This document shows positions 1,332 through 43,794 of a DNA stretch of 44,007 nucleotides, piece after piece. Within the stretch, counting starts at the first letter, position 1, and each line of letters begins with the position of its first letter. The DNA lies in the IMG/VR virus record IMGVR_UViG_3300042876_000049, positions 1 through 44,007 of that record. One strand, 5' to 3'. This stretch comes from a virus. A program made the translations under genes and the position numbers. The notes under the pieces were generated by a model. It had not been told where the DNA came from, searched no databases, and saw nothing but the letters and a program-made list of their open reading frames with translations.

Positions 1332-1364
1332 TTTACGCTAGATTCTACTGTGATAAGTAAGAGT

Positions 1365-1928
1365 ATGACAAGTCCACAGAAAGCAAAAGGCTCAGGTTTC
1401 GAGCGAGAAATCGCAAAATATCTTTCAGATAAGTACGGTGAATCATTCATTCGTGCTCCTGGATCCGGTGCTTATGTGGGTGGGAAGAATCAATCACGTA
1501 CAGAATTCTTGCACGAAGGTCAAATTCGTTCTTTCAAGGGCGACATTGTACCCGGTCAAAGTTTCAGTAAAATGAACATTGAATGCAAATTCTATGCTGA
1601 CTTCCCATTTCATCTATTACTTACAGGGGACTGTAAAGTAATCGATACTTGGATCGACCAACTCATGGACGTAGCAGATCCTGGCGATATTAATCTTCTG
1701 TTTATGAAGTTTAATCGCAAGGGTCGCTATGTTTGCGTACAAAGCAAATTTACATGGTTGGCTGACAACTTTGTGTATTACACATCAAAAAAGCACGGTG
1801 ACTGGACAATCTTCGAGTTCGACAGTTTCTTTGCATCAAACACTGAATTACTTAAAACATATTCAACATCAATAGACACCACGTCAAAACAATCATCTGA
1901 TAACCCCATTTTAACAATTAACATCTAA
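1365..1928 (+). CDS. PD-(D/E)XK nuclease, Holliday-junction-resolvase-like
   Basis: The 187-residue protein begins with a basic GSGFEREIAKYL helix, followed by RAPGSGAYVGG, then KGDIVP and MNIECKFY. The E...GD...ECK spacing is the PD-(D/E)XK nuclease core as seen in archaeal Hjc-type resolvases and related phage nucleases. I infer branched-DNA cleavage in recombination or packaging, supported by the gp46-like gene 33 bases upstream. I chose ATG at 1365 because it starts just before the conserved helix; GTG at 1350 is the alternative and adds five residues. The last 40 residues are polar and look disordered. VSR-like or restriction-type nucleases share the fold, so the substrate is uncertain. 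Confidence 0.65.
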   Translation: MTSPQKAKGSGFEREIAKYLSDKYGESFIRAPGSGAYVGGKNQSRTEFLHEGQIRSFKGDIVPGQSFSKMNIECKFYADFPFHLLLTGDCKVIDTWIDQLMDVADPGDINLLFMKFNRKGRYVCVQSKFTWLADNFVYYTSKKHGDWTIFEFDSFFASNTELLKTYSTSIDTTSKQSSDNPILTINI

Positions 1929-2484: not shown

Positions 2485-2715
2485 TTAGAAGAATGGCAAT
2501 TGAGATTTCTTAGTAATGTCTAGGTTCTCCTCAACAATACTTGCTATGGCTTCTCGCTCTTGGGGAGACATATTGAGTATGTCTTCATAGGAAGCTCCCC
2601 CTCGCATGTACCAAGAAAATTTCAGTGCGTTCTTTTTGATAGTATTGGCTTCTTCATCCATACTATCAATTAGCTTCTGTATCTGCTCAGGGGCTAGAGT
2701 GAGAAGCCTTAATCG
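2485..2715 (-). CDS. -1 frame extension of the gp26-like gene (predicted frameshift product tail, 76 residues)
   Basis: On the minus strand this frame is open from a TGA inside the gp26-like gene to a TAA at 2485-2487 and has no ATG, GTG or TTG before its conserved part. It encodes a plausible protein: LTLAPEQIQKLIDSMDEE, then FSWYMRGGASYEDILNMSPQ and IASIVEEN. The WYMRGG...SPQER pattern is like small tail-assembly proteins that follow phage tail chaperones. Lying in the -1 frame directly behind a T TTT TTC heptamer, it is best read as the C-terminal part of a fusion of about 349 residues with the gp26-like protein. The alternative is initiation from a rare start such as ATT. Confidence 0.6.
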   Translation of the reverse strand, partial: RLRLLTLAPEQIQKLIDSMDEEANTIKKNALKFSWYMRGGASYEDILNMSPQEREAIASIVEENLDITKKSQLPFF

Positions 2716-2721
2716 AAAAAA
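2673..2721 (-). promoter_or_regulatory. Programmed -1 ribosomal frameshift signal
   Basis: On the minus strand the heptamer T TTT TTC (2721 down to 2715) sits exactly in zero-frame phase over codons GAT TTT TTC of the gp26-like gene, one codon before its stop. After a 7-nt spacer, GCTTCT (2707-2702) can pair perfectly with AGAAGC (2678-2673), giving a downstream stem. Heptamer, phase, spacer and stem match known -1 frameshift sites such as those of lambda G/GT-type tail genes. Confidence 0.65.
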
Positions 2722-3599: not shown

Positions 3600-6500
3600 A
3601 TGGACGAAAATAATAACCAGGAAATGCAGGAAACGCTAAGACAGCTTAAAGAGGGCTTCGACACGTTGACGAGCACCCTCACCGGCGTTACGGAAGGTCT
3701 CAAAAAGTCTGCTGAACAGACCGGGAAAGCTAACGAACGTCAAGAAAAAGCTGATGTTGAAAGATTTGGTTATACCAAAGATAGTACTGGAAAACTAAAG
3801 ACTCTTGCCGACCAACGTAATGAGATTGAAGCTCAATACGCAGCACAGGTTAAGAAGGCACTTGGTGAAGAAGCAGGTAACGCTAAGTTACGCCATGATC
3901 TGATTACCAAAGAACTGGGTGATTTAGCTAAATTAGTTGATGCTAACGGTAAGTTAAATGAATCTGCTATTAAACTACGTGCAGAACAAACAACTTCGAC
4001 TGAGTTATTAAAGAAACAAATCCAAACACAGCTTGATCTTCAAAAAGTTGAGGTTGAAAAACAAAACCTACAAAAGAAAGAAGTACAAGACCTCGTTAAA
4101 AAAGAAGCCGCTGAGAAGAAACAATCTGATCGTCAGAAAAAGTCGTTAGATGACTTTGAAAAGATGGTTAAATCTCCGGGTTCTACGTTTGACGATATTA
4201 GTCAAAAGAATCAATCACTAAGTGATATTTCTGGAAACTTAACTAATAGCCTGTTAAAGATGAATGAAGGTAGTATCGGTGTAACTATCGGACTACGCTT
4301 GTTGGGTGCTACTGCTGATCTTGCAGGCGCTGCTCTTAAAGGAGTAACTGCTGGGTTTACTACAATGGCTAAGTCAATCTATGACGGTGAGCGTGGTATG
4401 AAAGTTGGAGCTAAAGGGGTTACTGCTTTTACTGAAGAACTTAACAAAGGAGTTCAATCATTTGGTAGTTTCTTAGTTGGTATTGGTTCAGCTTCGGTTG
4501 CATTATCCATCCTTGCAGCTCCCTTCACAGGTGGACTCTCGTTGTTAGGTTTAGGGTTAGGGGCCGCAGCAATTGCATTGGGTACTACAGCTAAAGTTGC
4601 AGGAGATTTTGCTGTCACATTAGCAAAATTAAACGAGCTAGCAGCAGAACAGAACGATAAGTTATATGAGTCGTTCCAAGAGTTAGGTAAAGCGTCAATG
4701 ACCGGCGCCGGTGGCATGACAGAGTTATATAAAAACTTACAAAATGCCAACATGACTGTTAAAGAATTTGATAAGTTCAGAGGCATACTACAGTCAGCGG
4801 GCAAAGACATGAAAATGTTTGGTATTACTGCCGCGGAAGGTATCAAGACATTTGCTGAAACAACAGGAACATTAGTTAAGTCTAGTTTGGGTAGAACCTT
4901 TGAATTGATGGGTATTAGCCAAGCAGAACAAGCAGCACATGCTGAGAAGTATATGGCTCAGCAGACTAGATTTGGATTAATGCAAGGCAAAACCATCAAT
5001 GACTTGGCAAAAGGCGCAGGTAAGTACATTGAAGAACTAGACAAATTAGCAACATTGACTGGTGCTACTAGACAAGAACAAGAAGAAGCACGTAATGCTG
5101 TAATGGCAATTGAAGAACTACGTGCAGCAATGATTGACGCAGAACGTCAAGGTGATACTGCAAGACTAGAAGAATTAAAGCGAGCCGCAGATATGGCTGA
5201 ACAGCTACAGGCTGCAGGTTTAAGTCGTCAAGCTACTGGTACCGCACAATATTTTGCTGCAGGTAAAGCAGTCATAAGTCAAGAATCAGTTGAAGCACTT
5301 CAAACTTTATCCGGAACATTTGAAAAGATTGAAAAGAACATAGGTACTAATGCAACACGTACTGTCGATGCTGCCAAAGAAGTATACGAGCAGGCCGGCA
5401 AGTACGCTAGTGTTCGTAAGATTGGTGGAACCACTGAGGGACTATACGGTGACTCTTATGGTAAAACAGCCGATTTCTATAAGAGAGTAAGTCCGGAAGC
5501 AATTGCCCAAGCAGAAGCTGCCGCCAAAAAAGAAGGTAAGACATTTGATCTTGATGCTTTCCTATTAGAACAACGTAGGGCTACTGATAAGAGAACCACT
5601 GAGCAAGTTGATCTAACTCGTGACCAACAACAGTTAGCTCTTAAAATGGATCAAATTGCATTCAAGTATACTGATGCTGCAGGGGTAAACAAACTAGCGG
5701 CAGATAAATTTAAGGAAGCAGTTGACGAACTAGAGAATTTTCTTAATGGTAAAAAAGGCACCGCATCAGCTCCTCCGGCTAGAGCTCCATCTGTTGGTGC
5801 TCCAATGGCTAGTACTGGTGGCGGAGCAGCAACCGGTAACGTTAACATGTCTCGTCAAGGAAAACGAGGTGCTGCCCCGGCAGAATCTGCAGGTGGCGGT
5901 AGAGGTTCTGTAAATCCAAAATCTGTTGGAAGCACTGGAACACTATCATCAGCAGAACTAACATTTGATGATATTGTCAAGTTTACTGGAGGAACAGGAA
6001 GTAGAGATCATTTTGCAAAACTTGATCCTTCTGTTTCAGATGCATTTCAGCAAATGGCTAAAGAATACTATGATGCCACTGGTGAAAAACTACAAATTAA
6101 TAGTTCCTTTAGAAGTATAGAAGAACAAGCAAACGTGAACTCAGGTGGCAATCCAAAAGCTGCGCCCGGTAAGAGTAAACATAATGTAGGTAGAGCATTA
6201 GATTTGAATAGTTTTGACGTTCAAATGCTACAGAAGTTAGACTTGTTGTCCAAATACGGTTTTAACACTATCCCTAACGACCCACCTCACATTGAAATGG
6301 GTGCTAGAACAGGAGGATTGTTTGATGGTCCTTCATCGGGATATAAAGTAGAGTTGCATGGTAGAGAAGCAGTTGTGCCCCTACCAAATCCAAATTCAAT
6401 TATTAATGTAGAAGATACTGCTGTTAGTAAAAAATCTTTAGCTTCCGTGACTCCATCGGCTGCTCAACAGACAGGATCATCACCTGCGAACACTGATGAC

Positions 6501-6620
6501 TTATCAAATATTTTTGCAACCATGATGGCAATGATGGAAGACAAGTTCGATTCATTAATCAACAAGATGGGTGATAGTAACGATATACAGGACAGAATAT
6601 TAAAGAATTCAATGGCCTAA
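3600..6620 (+). CDS. Tape-measure-like tail protein with an M15-type peptidase domain
   Basis: The 1006-residue protein begins with a long Q/K/E-rich coiled coil (about residues 1-190). A hydrophobic glycine-rich segment (about 288-345) may cross or perturb a membrane, and more helix follows. An Ala/Pro/Gly linker near 720-790 leads to a C-terminal domain (about 790-900) with INSSFRSIEEQ, KSKHNVGRALDLN and NDPPHIEM. The H...D...H pattern matches VanY/M15 zinc D-Ala peptidases. After it comes GGLFDGPSSGYKVELHG then EAVVPLP, a motif common in phage tape-measure and tail proteins. I infer tail-length control plus peptidoglycan cleavage during injection. Length and position before the portal gene fit; a gp29-like hub protein is a possible alternative name. 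Confidence 0.75.
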   Translation: MDENNNQEMQETLRQLKEGFDTLTSTLTGVTEGLKKSAEQTGKANERQEKADVERFGYTKDSTGKLKTLADQRNEIEAQYAAQVKKALGEEAGNAKLRHDLITKELGDLAKLVDANGKLNESAIKLRAEQTTSTELLKKQIQTQLDLQKVEVEKQNLQKKEVQDLVKKEAAEKKQSDRQKKSLDDFEKMVKSPGSTFDDISQKNQSLSDISGNLTNSLLKMNEGSIGVTIGLRLLGATADLAGAALKGVTAGFTTMAKSIYDGERGMKVGAKGVTAFTEELNKGVQSFGSFLVGIGSASVALSILAAPFTGGLSLLGLGLGAAAIALGTTAKVAGDFAVTLAKLNELAAEQNDKLYESFQELGKASMTGAGGMTELYKNLQNANMTVKEFDKFRGILQSAGKDMKMFGITAAEGIKTFAETTGTLVKSSLGRTFELMGISQAEQAAHAEKYMAQQTRFGLMQGKTINDLAKGAGKYIEELDKLATLTGATRQEQEEARNAVMAIEELRAAMIDAERQGDTARLEELKRAADMAEQLQAAGLSRQATGTAQYFAAGKAVISQESVEALQTLSGTFEKIEKNIGTNATRTVDAAKEVYEQAGKYASVRKIGGTTEGLYGDSYGKTADFYKRVSPEAIAQAEAAAKKEGKTFDLDAFLLEQRRATDKRTTEQVDLTRDQQQLALKMDQIAFKYTDAAGVNKLAADKFKEAVDELENFLNGKKGTASAPPARAPSVGAPMASTGGGAATGNVNMSRQGKRGAAPAESAGGGRGSVNPKSVGSTGTLSSAELTFDDIVKFTGGTGSRDHFAKLDPSVSDAFQQMAKEYYDATGEKLQINSSFRSIEEQANVNSGGNPKAAPGKSKHNVGRALDLNSFDVQMLQKLDLLSKYGFNTIPNDPPHIEMGARTGGLFDGPSSGYKVELHGREAVVPLPNPNSIINVEDTAVSKKSLASVTPSAAQQTGSSPANTDDLSNIFATMMAMMEDKFDSLINKMGDSNDIQDRILKNSMA

Positions 6621-20390: not shown

Positions 20391-23300
20391 ATGGCAAGTA
20401 AACAATTTAACGCAGAACAAGGATACACAATTGGTTCAAACACGATAGTTACTATCGTGGATGCCAACGGTAATGTGTATGCTAACACCCTTTCAGCTAC
20501 CGGTAACGCGACTGTAGGTAATTTAACCTCAACTGGCATTGTATATGCTAACAACAATATTGTTGTTGGGTCAAATACGACTGAGGGTGGTCAGATAGTG
20601 ATGGGTTGGGTTGGAATTAACGGGATGACCGGTCAAGCCAACGGCACATGGAACATGGATGTTGATTCGTCTAATAATTTCCGATTGTTCACCCAAAACG
20701 CAACTGGCGTAGTAAGCGGAATTACAATGACTGCTTACTCTAGTAACAACACTACGTCATTTGCCGCAAACTTATCAGCTCCTTATTTCATTGGTAACGG
20801 TAGTCAGTTAACTGGTATAACTGTATCAGCCGGTTCATCCATCACTAACGGTACAAGTAATGTAAGTATCCCATCGTCAGGTGGCAACATTAACATGAGC
20901 GTTGGGGGCACTGCCAACGTAGTAGTAGTTTCTAGTAATACTGTTACTGCCACTACTTTTGCTGCTACTAATAACGGAAACGCACTAAACTTTAAAGTAG
21001 GCGATGATGCATGGTTAGGTGATATCAACAATGCAGACACTGTTGGTTTGATAGGCCAACAAAACGCAGCTAACGGATATATTGTATTTGGTAATGCAGA
21101 TAACTCAACTAAGTTAGGTCGTTCAGGATCTGGACCATTAACTTATGCAGGTGCATTTTCTGCATCAGGCAACGTTACTGGTTCTAACTTAGTAACAGGT
21201 GGTTTGATTACAGCTACCGGTAACTTGAATGCAGGTAACATTATTACCGCAGGCGTTATGAGTTCAACTGGTAATGCAACACACGGTAACATAATTACAG
21301 GTGGTTTGATTACAGCTACCGGTAACATCACCGGCGCTAAAGTAATAGCGAACGGTACTATTGGTGATGGTATTGTAGGTGGCGCATTGACATCAGGCGC
21401 AACTAAAGGTACTGGTGTTACTGGTCAAGCATATGTATCAGCAACTGGAGATACCGGCGCAGCAGTTGGTGTTCGTGGCTACGCACTCGATACTCACTCA
21501 GGTGGTTACAACATTGGTGTATTAGGTAACGCTGCTGGTTCTGGTCTTGGTAACTACGCTTTCTATGTTCAAGCAGGTAACATTGGTTCTATTGAAACAG
21601 TGACTGCATGGGACTTATTTGATAACAGTGCAACTTCATTAACATTCCAGTCAACTGGAAAAGCAAACATTCTAGGTCTTGATACAAGAGACGGTGCTGA
21701 AGGTGTTTACACATCTGGTTACTTGAACGTAACAGGCAACGTCACTGCATCAAGATTGATTTCAAATATCGCAACAGGTACTGCACCACTAACAGTTACA
21801 AGTACAACACGTGTTGCTAACTTAAACGTTTCATATGCAAACGTAAGTGACTTCAGTTCTGTAGCTACAGCAACAACAGGTAACTATTACCTCAATATGG
21901 TCAATGCGTTGACTGGTAACGTACAAGAGTATGCTAATGCTACTATCTTTGCAAACGTCAGTAATGGTTCGTTGTATGCAACTACTTTTGTTGGTTCACT
22001 GAGTGGTACTGCTACATCTGCGACCACTGCAGGTACTGTAACAACAAATGCACAACCAAATATTACAAGTACAGGTACACTTGCATCTTTATCTGTATCA
22101 GGTAACGCAAACATTGGTAACATTGGCACTGCTGGATTGATTACAGCTACTGGTAATATCACAGGTGGAAACTTGGTTACAGGTGGCGCTATCAGTGCTA
22201 CTGGTAACTTAACAGCAGGCAATGCAACAATTGGTTCTGGTTCCGGTGGTAGTATCACTGGTGCAAACTTAGTTTCTGCAAACTTCTTTACCGGTACATT
22301 AACAACAGGTGCTCAACCAAACATTACTAGTGTTGGTACACTTGCATCTTTATCTGTAACTGGTAATGCAAACATCGGCAATATTGGTACTGCTGGCTTA
22401 ATTACTGCAACTGGTAATATTCAAGGTGGTAACTTAGTAACTGGTGGACAGATTTCTGCAACTGGAAACTTAACAGCAGGTAACGCAATCATTGGTACTG
22501 ACTTGTATGTTGGTACTGGTGCATCAAGTTCTGGATTAACTAACCCAGTTGTTGTAGCAAGAGACACAGCCGCAACATATATTCAAGTTGCCGCAGTTAA
22601 CACAAGCAACGCAGGTTCTGCTGACTTTGCAGCGTATGCCGATAACGGCAATGACGTACAGGGTTGGGTTGACATGGGCTTCACTGGATCAAACTTCAGT
22701 GACGTTAACTATACAATCACAGGTAAGAACGACGGTTATGTCTTTGCTAACGGTGTTACCGGCAACAGTAGTTTTGGTGGTAACTTAGTATTTGCAACAG
22801 GTAACGGTGGTGCTAACAACGATATCGTTTGGGCTACCGGTGGCTTCTTAGCAGTCAACGAAAAAATGCGTTTCCAACATAGCTTGGGAACAATGAACAT
22901 TAAACCAGCAACAGTGTCAACAACTACCGGTACTGGTGCATTAATTCTTTCTGGAACAAATGCAGGTTTAGGTGTAGCAGGAAACATCAACGCCGGCGGT
23001 GCAGCAAGTATTACCGGTAACGTATCTGCTGGAAACATCAATACGTCTGGTACTGAAACAGCATCTCGCTTCATATCAAACGTAGCAACAGGTACAGCAC
23101 CACTAACTGTCACAAGTACAACACGTGTAGCTAACTTATCTGTAGCTTATGCAAACGTCAGTGATTATAGTGTAGTAAGTACAGCAACTTCAGGTAACTA
23201 CTACATAAACTTTGTCAGTGCATTAACCGGTAATCTACAAGAATTTGCTAATAGTGTGTTTGTTGCCAACGTGTCAAACGGAGCAATTACTGCAACTACA

Positions 23301-26300
23301 TTCGTTGGCGCACTGTCAGGTGCTGCAACTACTGCAGGTACTGTAACAACAAATGCTCAGCCAAATATTACAAGTACAGGTACACTTGCATCCTTATCTG
23401 TCACCGGTAACGCAAACGCAGGTAACTTTAATACTGCCGGGCAATTCGTATCGACTGTTGCAACAGGAACTGCACCTATCGTTATTTCTTCAACTACAAA
23501 AGTTGCCAACTTAAACGTTGAGCAAGTTGATGGATATGATGCTAATATTTCTTCTGTAGCTAGTAACATTGTTGTGCGTGATGCTAACGCAAACGTCAAT
23601 GCTAATAATTTTAGTGCTTCTGGATTAGTAACTGCTACTGGTAATATCACAGGTGCAAACTTAATAACCGGTGGCTTGATTACTGCTACTGGTAACTTGA
23701 ATGCAGGTAATATTATCACTGCTGGTATTATGAGTTCTACTGGTAACGGTACTCATGGCAACATTATCACTAGTGGATTGATAACAGCAACCGGTAACTT
23801 GAATGCAGGTAATATTATCACTGGTGGTATTCTAAGTGCTACAGGTAACGGTACATTTGGTAACGTCACTGCTACATTACACGTAGGTAATTTATCTGGT
23901 TCAGGTAATAGTAACGTAGGTAACTTGGGTACAACTAACTTAGTTGCAACTGGATCTGGATCATTTGGCGCAAACGTCAATATGAACAGTTTCAGCATTA
24001 ACAACTTAGCAACTCCCGTCGCTAACGCTGATGCTGCAACAAAACAATATGTTGACCAACTTGCGTCTACTGGATTGGCATATCATACTTCTGTTAATGC
24101 TGCAACTACAACTACACTAGCTACCACTACAGGTGGTACTATCACTTATAACAACGGTTCAAGTGGTGTAAACGCTAACTTAGTTACAACTGGATCATAC
24201 ACAACAGTTGACGGTGTTAACATTGCATCCGTTGGTGCTCGTATTCTAGTTAAGAACGAAGCAAACGCAGCATGGAATGGTGTTTATACATACGCTAACA
24301 GCACTACAATTGTTCGTGCAACTGACGCCGACACGTATGGTCCTGCAAGTACAACTGACTTGAGTGAAAACGATTACTTCTACGTTCCTGCAGGTACAGT
24401 GAACATCGGTACTGCTTGGGTAGTTACTACGACAGGTGTAATTACATTTGGCACTACAAACATTACATTTGCACAGTTTAGTAGTTCGCAAGTTTATTCT
24501 GCTGGTACTGGATTAACATTAACAAACACTACTTTCAGTGTCAATGCAAGTCAAACACAAATTACAAGTGTTGGTACACTAACATCATTGAGTGTAAGTG
24601 GTAATGCAAACGTGGGTAACATTGGTGCAACTACGTTTGTTGGTACACTAAGCGGAGCAGCAACTACAGCCGGTACTGTAACAACTGCGGCACAACCTAA
24701 CATTACAAGTGTTGGTACACTCACTTCATTGAGCGTATCAGGTACAGCAACTGTTGGTACAGTTAACGGAGCACACAACGGTACAGTTGGTGCTACTACT
24801 GCAAATACAGGTGCATTCACAACAATCAGTGCTACTGGTGCAATCACAAGTACACTAGCAACCGGTACTGCTCCTTTCGTAGTAACAAGCACCACGCAAG
24901 TTGCTAACTTGAGTGTAGCAACCGCAGGTCTTGCTACATTTGCAACAACTGCAAACTCAGTAGCAGGAGCTAACGTATCCGGTACCGTAAGCTCTGCAAC
25001 TACCGCAGGTACAGTAACGACAGCAGCACAACCCAATATTACAAGTGTTGGTACACTAACAAGTTTGGGCGTTTCAGGTGCAGTAACCGCAAGTACATTA
25101 GTTTCGAACGTTGCTACAGGAACTGCTCCGTTAACAGTTACATCTACCACACGTGTTAATAACTTGAACGTGGCATATGCTAACGTTGCTGATTTTATTA
25201 ACGTTACTACTACTTCTACTGGTAACTCATATCTACTTTTAGCAAATGCTATTACAGGGAATGTCTCTGAGGTTGCTAACGCGGTGTTTATTGCTAACTC
25301 AAGCAATGGTGCGATTCATGCAACAACATTCGTTGGTGCATTAAGCGGTGCAGCAACAAGTGCAACGACTGCAGGTACAGTAACAACCGCAGCACAACCA
25401 AATATTACAAGTGTTGGTACATTAACTAGTTTGTCATCTAGTGGTAACATCACTGGTGCTAACATTACTGGCACACACTACGGCGCGGCAACAGGATTGA
25501 CAAGTATTCCTGGTGGTAACGTTACTGGTACAGTAGCCAATGCAACGTTTGCTACTAGTGCTGGATCTGCAACTTCTGCAACTACTGCTGGTACTGTAAC
25601 AACTGCGGCTCAACCTAACATTACTAGTGTTGGTACATTAACATCGTTAGGTGTCAATGGAACAGTAACAGCAACAGCGTTTACAGCTAACACTGGGGTG
25701 TTTACTGGTAATGGTAGTGGATTGAGTGCTATTGCAGGTGCAAACGTAACTGGTACTGTAGCTAACGCAACATATGCAGTAAGTGCTGGATCCGCTACTA
25801 CTGCTACATCAGCTACTACTGCTACATCAGCTACTACCGCAGGTACCGTAACAACTGCTGCCCAAGGTAATATTACAAGTGTTGGTACACTAACTAGTTT
25901 ATCTGTATCTGGAAACGTAAATGCCGGTAACGTTATTAGCTCAGGTGGAGTTCAGGCAGCAGCCGGTACAGGCTTCCAATCAACAGCCTACATCGTTAGT
26001 GCAAGAAACCCAATCTGGAACTTCTTTAACGCTAGTGGATATGGTATCAGTTATTTCCAAGGTACTGCTGGTATTGGTGGAGCGGATACAATCACTATTC
26101 ACCCTAACGGAAACGTCCTTTCAAACGGAGCACCGTTTGCAGTTACAAGTTCTGCGGTTGTTTTCACAAACATGACAACTGGTTCAAACGTAACAGCTGG
26201 TACTATTACTGGTAACTGGACATTAACTGCTGGATCTAAGTTGAATGCTACATACGCTGACTTGGCAGAAAAGTACGTAGCGGATGCAGAATATGAGCCG

Positions 26301-26627
26301 GGTACAGTTCTAGTATTTGGCGGTGAACAAGAAGTTACATTGTCAACAGAAACTGACTCATTCAGAGTTGCTGGTGTTGTTACAACTAACCCTGCATACA
26401 CTATGAACGATGCATGTGAAGGTGAACACGTTGCTACTATTGCGTTGCAAGGACGTGTACCAGTTAAAGTTCTAGGTCCTGTATACAAAGGTGACTTATT
26501 AGTATCTACTGGTAATGGATATGCCACTGCTAATAATATAGCACGTGCCGGTACTATCATTGGTAAGTCTCTACAAAACTTCTCATCTGCATCTGGAATT
26601 GTTGAAGTAGCTGTTGGTCGATTCTAA
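20391..26627 (+). CDS. Giant repetitive tail-fibre-like protein 3 (2078 residues)
   Basis: It begins QFNAEQGYTIGSNTIVTIVD, like fibres 1 and 2. The shaft carries the same TGN(A/L)N(V/I)GN units plus a larger module of about 130 residues (ATGTAPLTVTSTTRVANL, then YANVSDF, NALTGN, TTFVG, AQPNITSVGTL) present at least three times, and once in fibre 2. The NEANAAWNGVYT block is shared with fibre 2. The C-terminal domain (from about YADLAEKYVADAEYEPGTVL) ends GIVEVAVGRF; this YADLAE domain is common at the end of phage fibre proteins. I infer a long adsorption fibre. Antisense open frames here arise from composition only. Confidence 0.8.
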   Translation: MASKQFNAEQGYTIGSNTIVTIVDANGNVYANTLSATGNATVGNLTSTGIVYANNNIVVGSNTTEGGQIVMGWVGINGMTGQANGTWNMDVDSSNNFRLFTQNATGVVSGITMTAYSSNNTTSFAANLSAPYFIGNGSQLTGITVSAGSSITNGTSNVSIPSSGGNINMSVGGTANVVVVSSNTVTATTFAATNNGNALNFKVGDDAWLGDINNADTVGLIGQQNAANGYIVFGNADNSTKLGRSGSGPLTYAGAFSASGNVTGSNLVTGGLITATGNLNAGNIITAGVMSSTGNATHGNIITGGLITATGNITGAKVIANGTIGDGIVGGALTSGATKGTGVTGQAYVSATGDTGAAVGVRGYALDTHSGGYNIGVLGNAAGSGLGNYAFYVQAGNIGSIETVTAWDLFDNSATSLTFQSTGKANILGLDTRDGAEGVYTSGYLNVTGNVTASRLISNIATGTAPLTVTSTTRVANLNVSYANVSDFSSVATATTGNYYLNMVNALTGNVQEYANATIFANVSNGSLYATTFVGSLSGTATSATTAGTVTTNAQPNITSTGTLASLSVSGNANIGNIGTAGLITATGNITGGNLVTGGAISATGNLTAGNATIGSGSGGSITGANLVSANFFTGTLTTGAQPNITSVGTLASLSVTGNANIGNIGTAGLITATGNIQGGNLVTGGQISATGNLTAGNAIIGTDLYVGTGASSSGLTNPVVVARDTAATYIQVAAVNTSNAGSADFAAYADNGNDVQGWVDMGFTGSNFSDVNYTITGKNDGYVFANGVTGNSSFGGNLVFATGNGGANNDIVWATGGFLAVNEKMRFQHSLGTMNIKPATVSTTTGTGALILSGTNAGLGVAGNINAGGAASITGNVSAGNINTSGTETASRFISNVATGTAPLTVTSTTRVANLSVAYANVSDYSVVSTATSGNYYINFVSALTGNLQEFANSVFVANVSNGAITATTFVGALSGAATTAGTVTTNAQPNITSTGTLASLSVTGNANAGNFNTAGQFVSTVATGTAPIVISSTTKVANLNVEQVDGYDANISSVASNIVVRDANANVNANNFSASGLVTATGNITGANLITGGLITATGNLNAGNIITAGIMSSTGNGTHGNIITSGLITATGNLNAGNIITGGILSATGNGTFGNVTATLHVGNLSGSGNSNVGNLGTTNLVATGSGSFGANVNMNSFSINNLATPVANADAATKQYVDQLASTGLAYHTSVNAATTTTLATTTGGTITYNNGSSGVNANLVTTGSYTTVDGVNIASVGARILVKNEANAAWNGVYTYANSTTIVRATDADTYGPASTTDLSENDYFYVPAGTVNIGTAWVVTTTGVITFGTTNITFAQFSSSQVYSAGTGLTLTNTTFSVNASQTQITSVGTLTSLSVSGNANVGNIGATTFVGTLSGAATTAGTVTTAAQPNITSVGTLTSLSVSGTATVGTVNGAHNGTVGATTANTGAFTTISATGAITSTLATGTAPFVVTSTTQVANLSVATAGLATFATTANSVAGANVSGTVSSATTAGTVTTAAQPNITSVGTLTSLGVSGAVTASTLVSNVATGTAPLTVTSTTRVNNLNVAYANVADFINVTTTSTGNSYLLLANAITGNVSEVANAVFIANSSNGAIHATTFVGALSGAATSATTAGTVTTAAQPNITSVGTLTSLSSSGNITGANITGTHYGAATGLTSIPGGNVTGTVANATFATSAGSATSATTAGTVTTAAQPNITSVGTLTSLGVNGTVTATAFTANTGVFTGNGSGLSAIAGANVTGTVANATYAVSAGSATTATSATTATSATTAGTVTTAAQGNITSVGTLTSLSVSGNVNAGNVISSGGVQAAAGTGFQSTAYIVSARNPIWNFFNASGYGISYFQGTAGIGGADTITIHPNGNVLSNGAPFAVTSSAVVFTNMTTGSNVTAGTITGNWTLTAGSKLNATYADLAEKYVADAEYEPGTVLVFGGEQEVTLSTETDSFRVAGVVTTNPAYTMNDACEGEHVATIALQGRVPVKVLGPVYKGDLLVSTGNGYATANNIARAGTIIGKSLQNFSSASGIVEVAVGRF

Positions 26628-39913: not shown

Positions 39914-39991
39914 TCCGTGAGAGCAAGCAAGGTGTGGGCGTCTGACTGTTAATCAGAAATGAGCCTGGTTCGATCCCAGGTCACGGAGCCA
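39914..39991 (+). tRNA. tRNA-Asn(GTT)
   Basis: Acceptor TCCGTGA/TCACGGA, anticodon loop CTGTTAA on a TCTGA/TCAGA stem, T-arm with GTTCGATCC, CCA encoded. The D-arm pairs poorly. Confidence 0.85.
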
Positions 39992-39999
39992 AGTTAAAT

Positions 40000-40074
40000 G
40001 GTCTTGTCATATAGTGGTTATTATACCGGCCTGTCTAGTCGGATATCGGGGTTCGATTCCCCGCAGGATCGCCA
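40000..40074 (+). tRNA. tRNA-Asp(GTC)
   Basis: Acceptor GGTCTTG/CAGGATC, anticodon loop CTGTCTA, T-arm GGGGTTCGATTCCCC, CCA encoded. Confidence 0.9.
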
Positions 40075-40084
40075 AGTATTTTGT

Positions 40085-40162
40085 TGGGGTATAGCTTAGT
40101 CTGGCCTAAAGCACTGGTCTTTGAAATCAGTATCATTGGTTCGAATCCAATTACCTCTGCCA
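40085..40162 (+). tRNA. tRNA-Gln(TTG)
   Basis: TGGGGTA acceptor typical of Gln, anticodon loop CTTTGAA on CTGGT/ATCAG, T-arm TTGGTTCGAATCCAA, CCA encoded. Confidence 0.8.
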
Positions 40163-40169
40163 ATTTTAT

Positions 40170-40243
40170 CTCCGAGAGATGTTACGGTAGCATCCCTGGC
40201 CTGGAACCAGGAAGCGGCAGTTCGACTCTGCCCTCGGTGACCA
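40170..40243 (+). tRNA. tRNA-Pro(TGG)
   Basis: Anticodon loop CCTGGAA on CCTGG/CCAGG; acceptor CTCCGAG/CTCGGTG with one T-T mismatch; CCA encoded. Confidence 0.85.
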
Positions 40244-40248
40244 ATTAT

Positions 40249-40323
40249 ACTCAGTTCGTCTATCGGTAAGGACGACAGCCTTTCAAGTTGTAAAGACGGG
40301 TTCGATTCCCGTACTGAGTACCA
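40249..40323 (+). tRNA. tRNA-Glu(TTC)
   Basis: Perfect acceptor ACTCAGT/ACTGAGT, anticodon loop CTTTCAA, T-arm CGGGTTCGATTCCCG, CCA encoded. Confidence 0.9.
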
Positions 40324-40326
40324 AGT

Positions 40327-40412
40327 TTTGTAGTGACGCCACAGTCGTAAGAGCCAGCTGGAACGAGAAGACAAAAAGCCTAAGTGTGCAGATGGGCTCG
40401 CACAGCTACAAA
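40327..40412 (+). ncRNA. tRNA-sized structured element between tRNA genes (element F)
   Basis: TTTGTAG 40327-40333 pairs with CTACAAA 40406-40412, a 7-bp closing stem around 72 nt. Inside, GAGCC 40351-40355 with GGCTC 40395-40399 and TGTGC 40385-40389 with GCACA 40400-40404 would form a pseudoknot. There is no T-loop or CCA. Confidence 0.4.
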
Positions 40413-40421
40413 TTAATTAAT

Positions 40422-40508
40422 GCGTTGTGTTCCCTGTCGCCGGCTGTAACCCGGTGGTCATATTAAGCAGGGTGGCGGCAAGAGGTTCGATTCCTTCACA
40501 ACGCACCA
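40422..40508 (+). tRNA. tRNA-Tyr(GTA), aberrant D-arm
   Basis: Perfect acceptor GCGTTGT/ACAACGC, CCA, T-loop TTCGATT, and a GCCGG/CCGGT stem with loop CTGTAAC (anticodon GTA). Only 10 nt separate acceptor and anticodon stem, so a normal D-arm is missing; CCCTG (40431-40435) can pair with CAGGG beyond the anticodon arm. It may be rearranged or non-functional. Confidence 0.6.
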
Positions 40509-40513
40509 ATCAT

Positions 40514-40588
40514 GGGGGCAGCAGAGGGCTGCGGAGATGCCTTGCAAGTATCTTGTCTAGAGGGGTTCGATACCCCCGGCCTCCACCA
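40514..40588 (+). tRNA. tRNA-Ala(TGC)
   Basis: Anticodon loop CTTGCAA; G3-U70 wobble in the acceptor, the alanine identity pair; very short D-loop (GCAG/CTGC around AGGG); CCA encoded. Confidence 0.8.
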
Positions 40589-40594
40589 AACAAT

Positions 40595-40669
40595 GGGCTG
40601 TTAGTGATAATGGGAGCACGGGGGCTTTGCACGTCCTAGGTAAGAGTTCGATTCTCTTACGGTCCACCA
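40595..40669 (+). tRNA. tRNA-Ala(TGC), second copy
   Basis: Loop TTTGCAC on GGGGC/GTCCT as in bacterial tRNA-Ala, G3-U70 in GGGCTGT/ACGGTCC, CCA encoded. Sequence differs from the first Ala gene. Confidence 0.85.
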
Positions 40670-40674
40670 GTTTT

Positions 40675-40736
40675 AGGATAGTAACAGCAACATTTATACT
40701 CTGAACTTTTAATTCAACCAGTAAAAATTCTATCCT
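40675..40736 (+). ncRNA. tRNA-like mini-element A
   Basis: AGGATAG pairs with CTATCCT (7 bp); CAGCAAC at 40685-40691; stem TGAA/TTCA at 40702-40716 around loop CTTTTAA, which looks like a Lys (UUU) anticodon loop; AAAAA at 40723-40727. There are no D- or T-arms and no CCA. It shares layout with elements B and C. Confidence 0.5.
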
Positions 40737-40745
40737 GTTTTATAT

Positions 40746-40820
40746 ACCCTCTTCGCCAAGTGGTAAGGCCCCGGATTTTGATTCCGGTATTCGGTGGTTC
40801 GAATCCATCAGGGGGTGCCA
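40746..40820 (+). tRNA. tRNA-Gln(TTG), second copy
   Basis: Acceptor ACCCTCT/AGGGGGT, anticodon loop TTTTGAT on CCGGA/TCCGG, T-arm GGTGGTTCGAATCCATC, CCA encoded. Confidence 0.85.
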
Positions 40821-40823
40821 AGT

Positions 40824-40883
40824 TGTGTTGCAACTGATTTGAGGAACTTGCGTTTAAACCTCAACGAGAATAACAAAAACACG
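40824..40883 (+). ncRNA. Possible mini-element E
   Basis: TGTGTT pairs with AACACG (6 bp); GCAAC at 40830-40834; inner stem TTGAGG/CCTCAA 40839-40864; AAAAA just before the 3' strand. It resembles elements A-C but is less regular. Confidence 0.3.
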
Positions 40884-40898
40884 CAGCCAAATTTATGC

Positions 40899-40926
40899 CG
40901 CCGTAACTCAGTAAATTATAGTCCCA
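40899..40926 (+). pseudogene. Partial copy of a tRNA-Arg 5' end
   Basis: CCGTAACTCAGT at 40901-40912 is identical to 41386-41397 of tRNA-Arg(ACG), and the following dozen bases are similar. The copy stops there, directly upstream of the HNH gene. Confidence 0.6.
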
Positions 40927-40929
40927 GAG

Positions 40930-40936
40930 CTAAATA
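40930..40936 (+). promoter_or_regulatory. Late-promoter-like CTAAATA ahead of the HNH gene
   Basis: CTAAATA lies 23 bases before the ATG at 40960; AAGAGG is in between. Confidence 0.4.
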
Positions 40937-40959
40937 TATTATGCTAAGAGGTCTATGAC

Positions 40960-41391
40960 ATGAAAAAACTAACATACAACTGTGTTAACTGCGGTAAAGA
41001 AAATAAATGGGGTGACAGTAAAGTAAACAAGTATTGTGATAATGCTTGTCATGCCCAACATCGTAGAAAGATAATCCTTGAAGATTGGTTATCAGGAACT
41101 TACTTCAATAAAAAAGGTGTTCCACCTGAGGTAGCTAAAGAGTGGATTAGTGAACAACAGAATCACTCTTGTCTATTGTGCGGTATTACTGAATGGAATG
41201 GAAGTTCTATTGTCTTTCAGTTTGACCATATTGACGGTGATCCTGACCACAACACTAAAGAAAACATTAGAATGTTGTGTCCAAACTGTCATTCTCAAAC
41301 AGAGACATACGGTGTAAAGAATAAAAAAGCGTCAGAAAGTAGACGGAATGTTTACAGACGAGAAAATTATAAAGATAAAAAGTCTCCGTAA
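40960..41391 (+). CDS. HNH homing-type endonuclease
   Basis: The 143-residue protein has an N-terminal zinc pair (CVNCGKENKW and YCDNACHAQH), a linker, then an intact HNH domain: SCLLCGITEW, FQFDHIDGDPDHNTKENI and LCPNCHSQTETYG. The two Cys pairs bind zinc and the His of DHIDGD is catalytic. The gene lies within the tRNA array, and its last two codons and stop overlap the 5' end of tRNA-Arg(ACG). A partial copy of that tRNA stands upstream, so it looks like a mobile gene that inserted at a tRNA gene. Confidence 0.9.
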   Translation: MKKLTYNCVNCGKENKWGDSKVNKYCDNACHAQHRRKIILEDWLSGTYFNKKGVPPEVAKEWISEQQNHSCLLCGITEWNGSSIVFQFDHIDGDPDHNTKENIRMLCPNCHSQTETYGVKNKKASESRRNVYRRENYKDKKSP

Positions 41392-41458
41392 CTCAGTGGA
41401 TTAGAGTACTTGCCTACGAAGTAAGGAGTCGGGAGTTCGAATCTCTCCGGAGACGCCA
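41382..41458 (+). tRNA. tRNA-Arg(ACG)
   Basis: Perfect acceptor GTCTCCG/CGGAGAC, anticodon loop CTACGAA, T-arm GGGAGTTCGAATCTCTC, CCA encoded. Its first ten bases overlap the HNH stop. Confidence 0.9.
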
Positions 41459-41465
41459 AGATTAT

Positions 41466-41542
41466 CCTTGAGTTAAGCGGGGCCGCGTTACGGCCTTGCA
41501 AATAGTTAGTAATGTGTACTGCAACTTACACCTCAAGGTCCA
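41466..41542 (+). ncRNA. tRNA-like gene with non-canonical T-loop (element G)
   Basis: Acceptor CCTTGAG/CTCAAGG (7 bp) with T discriminator and CCA. A GTGTA/TACAC arm directly before the 3' acceptor strand sits where a T-arm should be but has the loop CTGCAACT, not TTCGAAT. GCCG/CGGC hairpin near the D-arm position. No convincing anticodon arm. Confidence 0.4.
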
Positions 41543-41550
41543 GTTTTAAT

Positions 41551-41627
41551 GCGTGGTTAGCTCAGTTTGGTAGAGCAGTAGGTTGCCAACTTACAGGTCG
41601 CAGGTTCGAACCCTGTACCCCGCACCA
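41551..41627 (+). tRNA. tRNA-Gly(GCC)
   Basis: Loop TTGCCAA on GTAGG/CTTAC, good D-arm GCTCAGTTTGGTAGAGC, T-arm CAGGTTCGAACCCTG, CCA encoded. Confidence 0.9.
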
Positions 41628-41632
41628 GTTTT

Positions 41633-41690
41633 AGGATCGGTTCAGCAACTCAAAAGCTAACTTTGGATGTCTAGCGACAAAAACGATCCT
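41633..41690 (+). ncRNA. tRNA-like mini-element B
   Basis: AGGATCG pairs with CGATCCT (7 bp); CAGCAAC at 41643-41649; stem GCTAAC 41656-41661 with GT-TAGC 41669-41675 (one bulged C) around TTTGGAT, which resembles a Pro (UGG) anticodon loop; AAAAA at 41679-41683. Same architecture as element A, with compensating changes in the closing stem. Confidence 0.5.
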
Positions 41691-41718
41691 GTTTTATTTT
41701 CTCTAAGTTTACTTAGGT

Positions 41719-41789
41719 GTGGCCATGTTGTAATGGTAGCAACCTAGACTGTGACTCTGGTAGTTCGGGTTCGAGCCCCGATGGTCACC
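41719..41789 (+). tRNA. tRNA-His(GTG), no CCA, inside a long flanking helix
   Basis: Acceptor GTGGCCA/TGGTCAC, anticodon loop CTGTGAC on CTAGA/TCTGG, C73 as in His tRNAs. The sequence continues CCT, not CCA. TTTACTTAGG 41708-41717 pairs perfectly with CCTAAGTAAA 41790-41799, extending the acceptor by 10 bp. Confidence 0.85.
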
Positions 41790-41802
41790 CCTAAGTAAAT
41801 TT

Positions 41803-41876
41803 GCTCTTATAGTTCAATGGTAGAACACATTCTTGGTACGAATGAAATCTAAGTTCGATTCTTAGTTTGAGCACCA
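41803..41876 (+). tRNA. tRNA-Thr(GGT)
   Basis: Loop TTGGTAC on CATTC/GAATG, T-arm CTAAGTTCGATTCTTAG, CCA encoded; two T-T mismatches in the acceptor. Confidence 0.85.
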
Positions 41877-41884
41877 AATTTTAT

Positions 41885-41961
41885 GCATGGATGACAGAGT
41901 GGCCTAATGTGACTGATTGCAAACCAGTTTTTCGTGAGTTCGAATCTCACTCCATGTTCCA
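41885..41961 (+). tRNA. tRNA-Cys(GCA)
   Basis: Loop TTGCAAA, U73 discriminator as in Cys tRNAs, acceptor GCATGGA/TCCATGT, CCA encoded. Confidence 0.88.
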
Positions 41962-41969
41962 ATTTTAAT

Positions 41970-42043
41970 GCGTGGTTAGTTTAATGGTAAAATAGGACGT
42001 TGCCAACGTCTTGTCAAGAGTTCGATTCTCTTACCCCGCACCA
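41970..42043 (+). tRNA. tRNA-Gly(GCC), second copy
   Basis: Loop TTGCCAA on GGACG/CGTCT; acceptor GCGTGGT/ACCCCGC as in the first Gly gene; AT-rich D-arm; CCA encoded. Confidence 0.85.
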
Positions 42044-42049
42044 ATCAAT

Positions 42050-42169
42050 GCCGCTGTCGTCTAATTGGCTAGGACGCTTAAAAAGGTGACTCTGACAAGA
42101 GTACATACAGCAACATAAAAATTCCATTCTAAGGAAGTTATGGAGGTTCGAATCCTTCCGGCGGCACCA
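42050..42169 (+). tRNA. tRNA-Arg(TCT) interrupted by a 44-nt insertion
   Basis: Acceptor GCCGCTG/CGGCGGC, canonical D-arm (GTCT/GGAC), anticodon arm TTCC/GGAA with loop ATTCTAA, four-base variable region, T-arm GGAGGTTCGAATCCTTC and CCA are all present. Between D-arm and anticodon stem lie 44 extra bases (42077-42120) with an ACTCT/AGAGT hairpin and the CAGCAAC heptamer at 42108-42114. Confidence 0.75.
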
Positions 42170-42174
42170 GTTTT

Positions 42175-42294
42175 AGGATACATTCAGCAACTAATACTTA
42201 CGTCAACTAGCGTGTTGAGAGTTCGAACCTCTCCTTCGTTCTTATGGACGATGTAGCTCAATTGGTAGAGCAGCCAGCAAGTAAAAAGTATCCT
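42175..42294 (+). ncRNA. Element C: mini-element containing a permuted tRNA cloverleaf
   Basis: AGGATAC pairs with GTATCCT; CAGCAAC 42185-42191; AAAAA 42283-42287, as in elements A and B. Between them come, in this order, a T-arm GAGAG/CTCTC with loop TTCGAAC (42217-42233), a 3' acceptor strand, TTAT, a matching 5' acceptor strand (8-bp hairpin with one mismatch, 42234-42253), a canonical D-arm GCTC/GAGC (42256-42271) and GCCAG, which pairs 4 of 5 with CTAGC 42207-42211. This is a tRNA in circularly permuted order. Confidence 0.55.
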
Positions 42295-42304
42295 GTCTTA
42301 TTAT

Positions 42305-42379
42305 GCTCCATTAGTTCACGTGGTAGAATAACGGTTTTGTAGTCCGTAGAAGGCAGTTCAAGTCTGTCATGGAGCACCA
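42305..42379 (+). tRNA. tRNA-Thr(TGT)
   Basis: Perfect acceptor GCTCCAT/ATGGAGC, loop TTTGTAG, T-arm GGCAGTTCAAGTCTGTC, CCA encoded. Its 3' end is antisense to the end of the SGNH-like gene. Confidence 0.85.
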
Positions 42380-43062
42380 ATTATGTTCAGTAAGTTGTCG
42401 GCAAATTGTTTATTGTTGCCCACACCAGAATGCATTAAATCTCTTGCCGCATCCTTTATTGGATCGTTGTCAACTTCCTTTGCAATAATAAATTTTGATT
42501 TTATCTTATTGCACAATAATTCTATAGCACCGAGATTTTTCTCCTCATTGAGAATATGATTATATTCACATGAGAACCATTCTTTGTAGTTTGCAACTGA
42601 CATAGATGAATGAGGATTATGTGCTATAGGTCTAGTACTATAGTTAAACATTTCAAATCTAGCCGGATCAGGTGGCCGTATGACTACGATCTTTGGTTTT
42701 AGCCGATCGATGTAGTAGCTAGCTAAACGATACGCAGTATCACTAGAGCAGCCTCCCTGACCTAAGTTAACGCACTTCAGTTTTAATGCTTTTGCTGTTT
42801 GGTATGCCCAAGTAGCTTCAAGCGGCAGACCCACACCTAATGTATGACTACAACCTAAAAACATAATAGAGTCATCATCGGTAAATTCGTCACATCTAAA
42901 CCCGTGACTATTAAATTTATATGTGAAGGATGCATCTATCCAACCGTTAGATTGTAATCCTTCATAGTTGTTTTTTAGATTATCTAAGTATTGTGTTTTA
43001 CTGTCAGTGCCCAGCCATTGGGACTCTTTAAAACTGTAAAACGAAAATGATCTGAAATTCAT
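42367..43062 (-). CDS. SGNH/GDSL hydrolase-like protein
   Basis: The 231-residue protein shows the SGNH blocks: block I IMFLGCSHTLGVGLPLEATW (Ser nucleophile in GCSHT), block II NLGQGGCSSDTAYRLASYY, a strand KPKIVVIRPPDPARF, and a possible C-terminal catalytic pair in DAARDLMHSG. Such enzymes deacylate or esterify glycans and lipids; the substrate is unknown. ATG 43062 is chosen because AATAAATA stands four bases upstream; the longer frame to 43089 would lie inside tRNA-Met. It sits antisense within the tRNA array. Confidence 0.7.
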   Translation of the reverse strand: MNFRSFSFYSFKESQWLGTDSKTQYLDNLKNNYEGLQSNGWIDASFTYKFNSHGFRCDEFTDDDSIMFLGCSHTLGVGLPLEATWAYQTAKALKLKCVNLGQGGCSSDTAYRLASYYIDRLKPKIVVIRPPDPARFEMFNYSTRPIAHNPHSSMSVANYKEWFSCEYNHILNEEKNLGAIELLCNKIKSKFIIAKEVDNDPIKDAARDLMHSGVGNNKQFADNLLNIIGAP

Positions 43063-43066
43063 TGTG

Positions 43067-43074
43067 TATTTATT
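43067..43074 (-). promoter_or_regulatory. Late-promoter-like AATAAATA (minus) for the SGNH-like gene
   Basis: The minus strand reads AATAAATA, four bases, then ATG at 43062: a predicted leaderless late gene. Confidence 0.55.
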
Positions 43075-43076
43075 AT

Positions 43077-43151
43077 GGAAGTATAGCACAGCGGTAGTGC
43101 ATCTCCTTCATACGGAGCAGGTCAGTAGTTCGAATCTACTTACTTCCACCA
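43077..43151 (+). tRNA. tRNA-Met(CAT)
   Basis: Perfect acceptor GGAAGTA/TACTTCC, loop TTCATAC, T-arm AGTAGTTCGAATCTACT, CCA encoded. Elongator Met or an Ile with modified C34 cannot be told apart. Confidence 0.85.
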
Positions 43152-43309
43152 ATCAGTTGAGACAACGTATCAGGCACAAATGGTGTCTTTTGTTTGTTAT
43201 CAAACAATGGAACAAAAGTTTTTACAGTAGTGTAACTCTTTGAGTTTACATACTTGTATTGGCGGGCAACTTCGAATAGTTCGTTTATGCCATGATTAAC
43301 TTTTTCCAT
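43136..43309 (-). CDS. Small antisense ORF (57 residues) in the tRNA array
   Basis: MEKVNHGINELFEVARQYKY then SYTTVKTFVPLFDNKQKTP and a stop inside tRNA-Met (antisense). CATAAATA lies four bases ahead of the ATG, the same arrangement as other late genes. Composition is protein-like; function unknown. Confidence 0.5.
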   Translation of the reverse strand: MEKVNHGINELFEVARQYKYVNSKSYTTVKTFVPLFDNKQKTPFVPDTLSQLIGGSK

Positions 43310-43313
43310 ACAA

Positions 43314-43321
43314 TATTTATG
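43314..43321 (-). promoter_or_regulatory. Late-promoter-like CATAAATA (minus)
   Basis: The minus strand reads CATAAATA, four bases, then ATG at 43309. Confidence 0.45.
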
Positions 43322-43394
43322 CCCGGGTAGTTAAATGGAATAACACACCCCTGATAAGGGTGAGTAGCAAGTTCAATTCTTGCTCTGGGTACCA
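43321..43394 (+). tRNA. tRNA-Ile(GAT)
   Basis: Loop CTGATAA on CACCC/GGGTG, T-arm GCAAGTTCAATTCTTGC, acceptor GCCCGGG/TCTGGGT with wobbles, CCA encoded. Confidence 0.88.
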
Positions 43395-43401
43395 AGATTT
43401 C

Positions 43402-43478
43402 GCCTCAATAGCTCAGTTGGTTAGAGCAATGTGTTGATAACGCATAGGTCCCTGGTTCGAGTCCAGGTTGCGGCACCA
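43402..43478 (+). tRNA. tRNA-Ile(GAT), second copy
   Basis: Loop TTGATAA on ATGTG/CGCAT, standard D-arm GCTCAGTTGGTTAGAGC, T-arm CCTGGTTCGAGTCCAGG, CCA encoded. Confidence 0.9.
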
Positions 43479-43718
43479 AGTTTTGTCATAGTGTAATGAG
43501 AATGCACGGGATCGCCACATAAATCTTTTTAAGTAAAGCGGTGGAACAAGGTTCAGGTACGGTAAAAACCCGTAGCGACAATCAAATTTCGTGATAGACG
43601 GTGGGCTTGAGTCCCAAGTAGCAGGCGTTTAAGTACGCATTGGTTTGACTGTGAAGTATGGTTTGTTAAAACTCGCTCATTCGAGACAACACCGAAAGGT
43701 GTCACGAAAATCTATAAT
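43479..43718 (+). ncRNA. Candidate structured RNA between tRNA-Ile and tRNA-Phe
   Basis: No ORF is seen. TACGG 43558-43562 pairs with CCGTA 43570-43574, and ACACC 43689-43693 with GGTGT 43698-43702 closes a GAAA tetraloop. A GGGCTTGAGTCCC segment near 43600 looks like a T-arm with one altered base, so a degenerate tRNA piece may be included. Confidence 0.35.
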
Positions 43719-43794
43719 GCACCTTTAGCTGATATGGTTATAGCGGCGGTCTGAAAAATCGTAGAAGTTGGTTCGATTCCAACAGGGTGCACCA
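43719..43794 (+). tRNA. tRNA-Phe(GAA)
   Basis: Perfect acceptor GCACCTT/AGGGTGC (one G-T), loop CTGAAAA, T-arm GTTGGTTCGATTCCAAC, CCA encoded. Confidence 0.88.

Follow-up and report, generated by a model that had tools for sequence, protein, structure and literature searches.

The gp26-like gene of this T4-related virus very probably directs synthesis of two proteins, a short form of 274 residues and a long form of 349 residues, the latter through -1 programmed ribosomal frameshifting near the 3' end of the gene (Table 1). The heptamer, the reading frame and the -1 domain are established by sequence comparison, from which we infer the slip, its frequency and its function. The window analyzed here, a virus record of 44,007 bases, carries T4-like head genes (portal, protease and major head protein), and its virus is a T4-related virus of bacteria. 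The gp26-like protein matched Pfam family PF12322 (T4_baseplate) with an E-value of 3.2e-19 and a score of 69.9 bits (cut-off 24.5), and phrog_150 (baseplate hub) with an E-value of 1.5e-18. When the family profile was compared with T4 gp26 by hhalign, the match was 97% (E 2.9e-11). By these profile comparisons the gene belongs to the T4 gp26/PF12322 family, with homology over most of the protein. One gp26-like gene was found in each of the seven frameshift-type records searched whole.

Table 1. Features of the frameshift locus and its neighbors in the window
Feature	Position	Strand	Remarks
Slippery heptamer T TTT TTC	2715-2721	-	exact zero-frame phase
Zero-frame stop TAA	2709-2711	-	one codon (GAT) after the heptamer
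gp26-like gene, short form, TAC-N like	3533-2709	-	274 aa; PF12322, phrog_150, hhalign to T4 gp26
-1 frame extension, TAC-C like	2485-2721	-	76 residues after shared FF; stop codon 2485-2487
Predicted stimulatory hairpin	2672..2708	-	outer stem 2708-2702 with 2678-2672, 7 bp including one G-U, 6-7 nt after the heptamer
Probable tape measure gene	3600..6620	+	1006 aa; divergent from the gp26-like gene
Phage PDDEXK endonuclease / RusA-like resolvase gene	1350-1928		PF24608, E 4e-26

The gp26-like gene ends with GTT TCA GAT TTT TTC GAT TAA. The initial annotation had placed T TTT TTC in exact phase one codon before the gp26 stop, and we found it there, at 2721-2715, followed by GAT and TAA. This heptamer conforms to the X XXY YYZ pattern, lies in zero-frame phase upstream of the stop, and sits inside the overlap with an open -1 frame. 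That frame had been described as 76 residues long and lacking a usable start codon. Indeed, it is open as far as 2487-2485, and its first ATG, GTG or TTG comes mid-domain, 50 nt past the gp26 stop. No Rfam family was found at the shift site.

To place the site in context, relatives were gathered from IMG/VR and from annotated phage records, reaching down to about 25% identity and taking in jumbo phages, cyanophages, and Aeromonas and Rhizobium phages. T TTT TTC occurs in exact zero-frame phase in 121 of the 122 loci with a -1 domain. The remaining locus, from Stenotrophomonas phage RAS14 (L031:3271-3277), has T TTT TTT, the only variant heptamer seen. Among the relatives, the distance from heptamer to stop is 10, 13, 16, 19, 25, 40 or 70 nt; because this distance varies so widely, the heptamer rather than the stop is the conserved element. 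We reduced the set to 29 representatives sharing less than 70% identity (13 remain below 50% identity). The codon preceding TTT TTY ends in T in all 29, and the residue it encodes varies (D, S, N, H, T, R, Y or G). Elsewhere in the genes, TTT and TTC are used in a ratio of 176:117. Given the amino acids and pooled codon use, the probability of NNT-TTT-TTC across the 29 representatives is ∼10^-23.7 with lineages treated as independent, and since lineages share ancestry the true probability is less extreme. Judged by codon use, the heptamer arrangement is far beyond chance.

The -1 frame is open in all loci, and the -1 domain is homologous throughout. It can be aligned among the window phage, Agrobacterium Atu_ph07, E. 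coli PBECO4, Klebsiella RaK2, Vibrio 2.275.O, Salicola SCTP-2 and the cyanophages. Differences at the three codon positions of the -1 frame number 692/544/1269 in the window clade and 10794/4945/26034 in the cyanophage group, with the third position highest in both. By this pattern of substitution, the -1 domain evolves as protein. The initial annotation had proposed aligning the overlap in related phages as a check; in our alignment the heptamer, the frame and the -1 domain persist, and the hairpin is seen in most lineages. An AlphaFold2 model of the -1 domain is all-helical, with four helices and a mean pLDDT of 81.5. The -1 part alone matched no Pfam family, and its match to the end of phrog_150 was weak (E 0.13). 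A BFVD search with the model of the -1 domain returned nothing. Searches of the PDB by sequence and by fold yielded no significant relative for the gp26-like part or for the -1 part, and when similarity to tail assembly chaperones was sought, a single marginal BFVD match carried that name (E 0.012). A PDB alignment given a second look was rejected as not meaningful, its better rows covering mainly helical residues 148-203.

Downstream of the heptamer, a 7-nt spacer and a perfect 6-bp stem (2707-2702 with 2678-2673) had been noted previously. Both are present, and a G-U pair (2708/2672) extends the stem to 7 bp. Compared with 40-nt windows across its locus, this hairpin ranks in the top 2.3% by strength, and its z-score versus dinucleotide shuffles is only -0.53. 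Across 29 loci, 40-nt windows just after the heptamer are much more stable than other windows of the same loci (Fisher p 2e-12). The stability maximum is sharp, with a mean z of -1.87 at +4 and values near zero beyond ∼12 nt on either side. Most lineages have a predicted hairpin of different sequence that starts ∼7 nt after the heptamer, within the 5-9 nt spacing usual for stimulatory structures, and the cyanophage group has a different stem in the same place. Pair counts exceeded those of slid controls (85.9% versus 25-49%, and 85.7% versus 36-52%), with a few compensatory changes. Several lineages (L009, L011, L014, L025, L032 and L038) have only a weak hairpin or none. The predicted stimulatory hairpin is likely to be real; because several lineages have little structure, and because coding constraint of the -1 domain may contribute to the hairpin signal, we do not take it as essential in every lineage.

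These comparisons suggest the following mechanism. Most ribosomes would terminate at TAA, releasing the 274-residue protein. A minority would pause over U UUU UUC, probably aided by the hairpin ∼7 nt downstream. Both tRNA-Phe would then slip one base back to UUU UUU, and translation would run on for 76 residues, yielding the 349-residue fusion (...DFF-RLRLL...).

Is the -1 domain instead a separate gene, initiated at a start codon of its own or at a coupled one, as annotations of cyanophage gp51 and of several jumbo phages have it? Annotators do list separate ORFs. Moreover, an ATG overlaps or just follows the gp26 stop in L008, L018, L019, L020, L023 and the cyanophages, so that separate expression could occur in those phages. 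Yet the first possible start codon of the window's -1 frame, 50 nt past the stop, falls in the middle of a predicted long helix, and the -1 part of PA5oct (L022) has no ATG, GTG or TTG at all. A separate gene also leaves the near-invariant, in-phase heptamer unexplained, and we regard this reading as improbable. Relatives lacking the heptamer and encoding the domain from its own start had been named as evidence that would tell against a frameshift; among the relatives fetched, none that lacks a slippery site has the domain immediately behind gp26 with a start codon of its own.

Slippage of RNA polymerase on the homopolymer run of six T, which would produce mixed mRNA without any slip by the ribosome, is less probable still. 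Six T is short for polymerase slippage, the exact T6C and its phase are kept in 121 of 122 loci in place of longer runs, and the hairpin sits at the usual ribosomal spacing. As for a chance open frame, a decayed gene or a sequencing error, the comparison of relatives refutes it and leaves it a negligible probability: the same arrangement, with substitutions of the protein type, recurs in over 120 loci sequenced in many separate projects.

Under the frameshift reading, the locus shows at the sequence level the TAC-N/TAC-NC pattern, in which a small C-terminal domain distinguishes the frameshifted long form from the short one. Most likely the two proteins are tail assembly chaperones paired as in lambda G/GT, a reading drawn from the relation to the T4 gp26 family, from adjacency to a probable tape measure gene, and from the fact that T4-like tail assembly chaperones have already been identified in print. 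The initial annotation had inferred such a pair, and homology strengthens the inference, T4 gp26 being listed as a hub assembly chaperone (PMC3004832), as do the published T4-like chaperones. The two forms would most likely coat and guide the neighboring tape measure during assembly of the hub and tail tube, and would leave before the virion is completed, as lambda gpG and gpGT do. The gene at 3600-6620 adjoins the gp26-like gene and is transcribed divergently from it; an equivalent occupies the same divergent position in L002-L007, L009 and L010. The equivalent is annotated as tape measure in Erwinia pEa_SNUABM_47, and has also been compared with one in RaK2. We infer that the product is a probable tape measure protein. 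It contains a VanY/M15 peptidase-like region near residues 745-900.

The statement in the initial annotation that no frameshift had been described for gp26 is out of date, as Vladimirov et al. 2022 is cited for one in PMC10885494 and PMC12846349. According to these citing papers, Vladimirov, Gautam and Davidson (2022, Virology 566:9-15) identified the tail assembly chaperones of T4-like phages. The PRFect paper (PMC10885494) refers to them for T4-like phages in which, instead of frameshifting, a short TAC gene is accompanied by a separate, longer fusion gene; the paper on Pseudomonas phage Adele (PMC12846349) does so for poly-T frameshift signals in T4-like TAC-N genes. Frameshifting of this kind in T4-like phages is already published; what may be new is that jumbo phages share it, that the heptamer is nearly invariant and that a hairpin is conserved. 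The 2022 study by Vladimirov and colleagues is said to name T4 genes 26 and 51 as the two forms, and to report that frameshifting is kept in several T4-like groups. Our slip-site and gp26/gp51 comparisons agree with this account. No earlier description of a frameshift in RaK2-like phages was found in the open-access literature, which does not show that none exists.

Several known systems resemble the window. In the contractile-tailed phage P2, a tail chaperone gene has a T-rich heptamer at which -1 frameshifting gives rise to E and E+E', an arrangement comparable to that of the window. In the lambda gpG/gpGT system, too, a chaperone gene associated with a tape measure gene undergoes -1 frameshifting close to its end (PMC5009743). 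The comparison is again one of arrangement; the lambda slip site is different, and the window's tape measure candidate is transcribed divergently. The TAC locus of Pakpunavirus and Vandenendeviridae (PMC12846349) has a -1 frameshift with a poly-T motif (GTTTTT), and in its annotation, as in that of the window's relatives, the -1 domain figures as a stretch that is separate or intergenic; these are different phage families, compared here by arrangement. The T4-like chaperones gp26/gp51 belong to the same protein family and comprise a short form and a long form with a C-terminal domain. The T4-like TAC-N genes, according to PMC12846349, share the poly-T slip site.

Unlike the window, T4 and Acinetobacter Stupor have no slip site in gp26 and use two genes instead. 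When the T4/Stupor gp26 pair was compared with the gp51 pair by hhalign, both as two-sequence alignments, the match was 93.8% (E 1.7e-7), and the two proteins look like paralogues at this level. A profile of the cyanophage-type -1 domain matched the C-terminus of gp51 (E 2.3e-5, hhalign with a two-sequence gp51 alignment); direct matches of the whole -1 profile and the whole gp26 profile to T4 gp51 were too weak. Sullivan et al. 2010 described cyanophage gp51 as only ∼20% as long and as resembling the C-terminus of T4 gp51 (PMC3037559). The cyanophage record Sf-FS3 lists the -1 part as a protein in its own right, 'baseplate hub assembly catalyst', i.e. gp51. By profile comparison, then, cyanophage gp51 and the C-terminus of T4 gp51 are homologues of the -1 extension. 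T4 has long been regarded as the exception among long-tailed phages (PMC5009743). We lean somewhat toward the view that the U UUU UUC site with a hairpin ∼7 nt downstream is the ancestral means by which all T4-like phages, jumbo phages and cyanophages among them, make their tail chaperone pair, that duplication later replaced it in T4 by two genes, 26 and 51, and that the jumbo branch and the hairpin were previously undescribed.

In public records (L018-L033 and L036), the -1 domain appears as a separate hypothetical protein or as gp51, often cut to the first ATG, and it is missing from the annotation of PA5oct and RaK2. No joined frameshift product is present among the CDS rows shown for these records. 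A frameshift in the gp26-like gene would correct the annotation of many T4-like genomes, where the -1 part is now a separate gp51, a hypothetical gene or omitted. It would also bring jumbo phages into the published tail-chaperone scheme, and it bears on the origin of the two-gene arrangement in T4. Both the near-invariant heptamer and the hairpin lend themselves to reporter tests.

Other parts of the window were also inspected. No convincing gene occupies the ∼550 bases (1929-2484) that separate the PDDEXK/RusA-like gene from the point where the shifted gene ends; Rfam gave no match there at gathering scores, and the segment 1960-2240 shows no exceptional folding (z -0.86). Eighteen tRNA genes are predicted within about 4 kb (39914-43794), including a tRNA-Phe(GAA) at 43719-43794, which is of the type expected to decode both slip codons. 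A 2078-residue protein is predicted at 20391-26627, and its last ∼110 residues match the tail fibre family phrog_19602 (E 1e-4).
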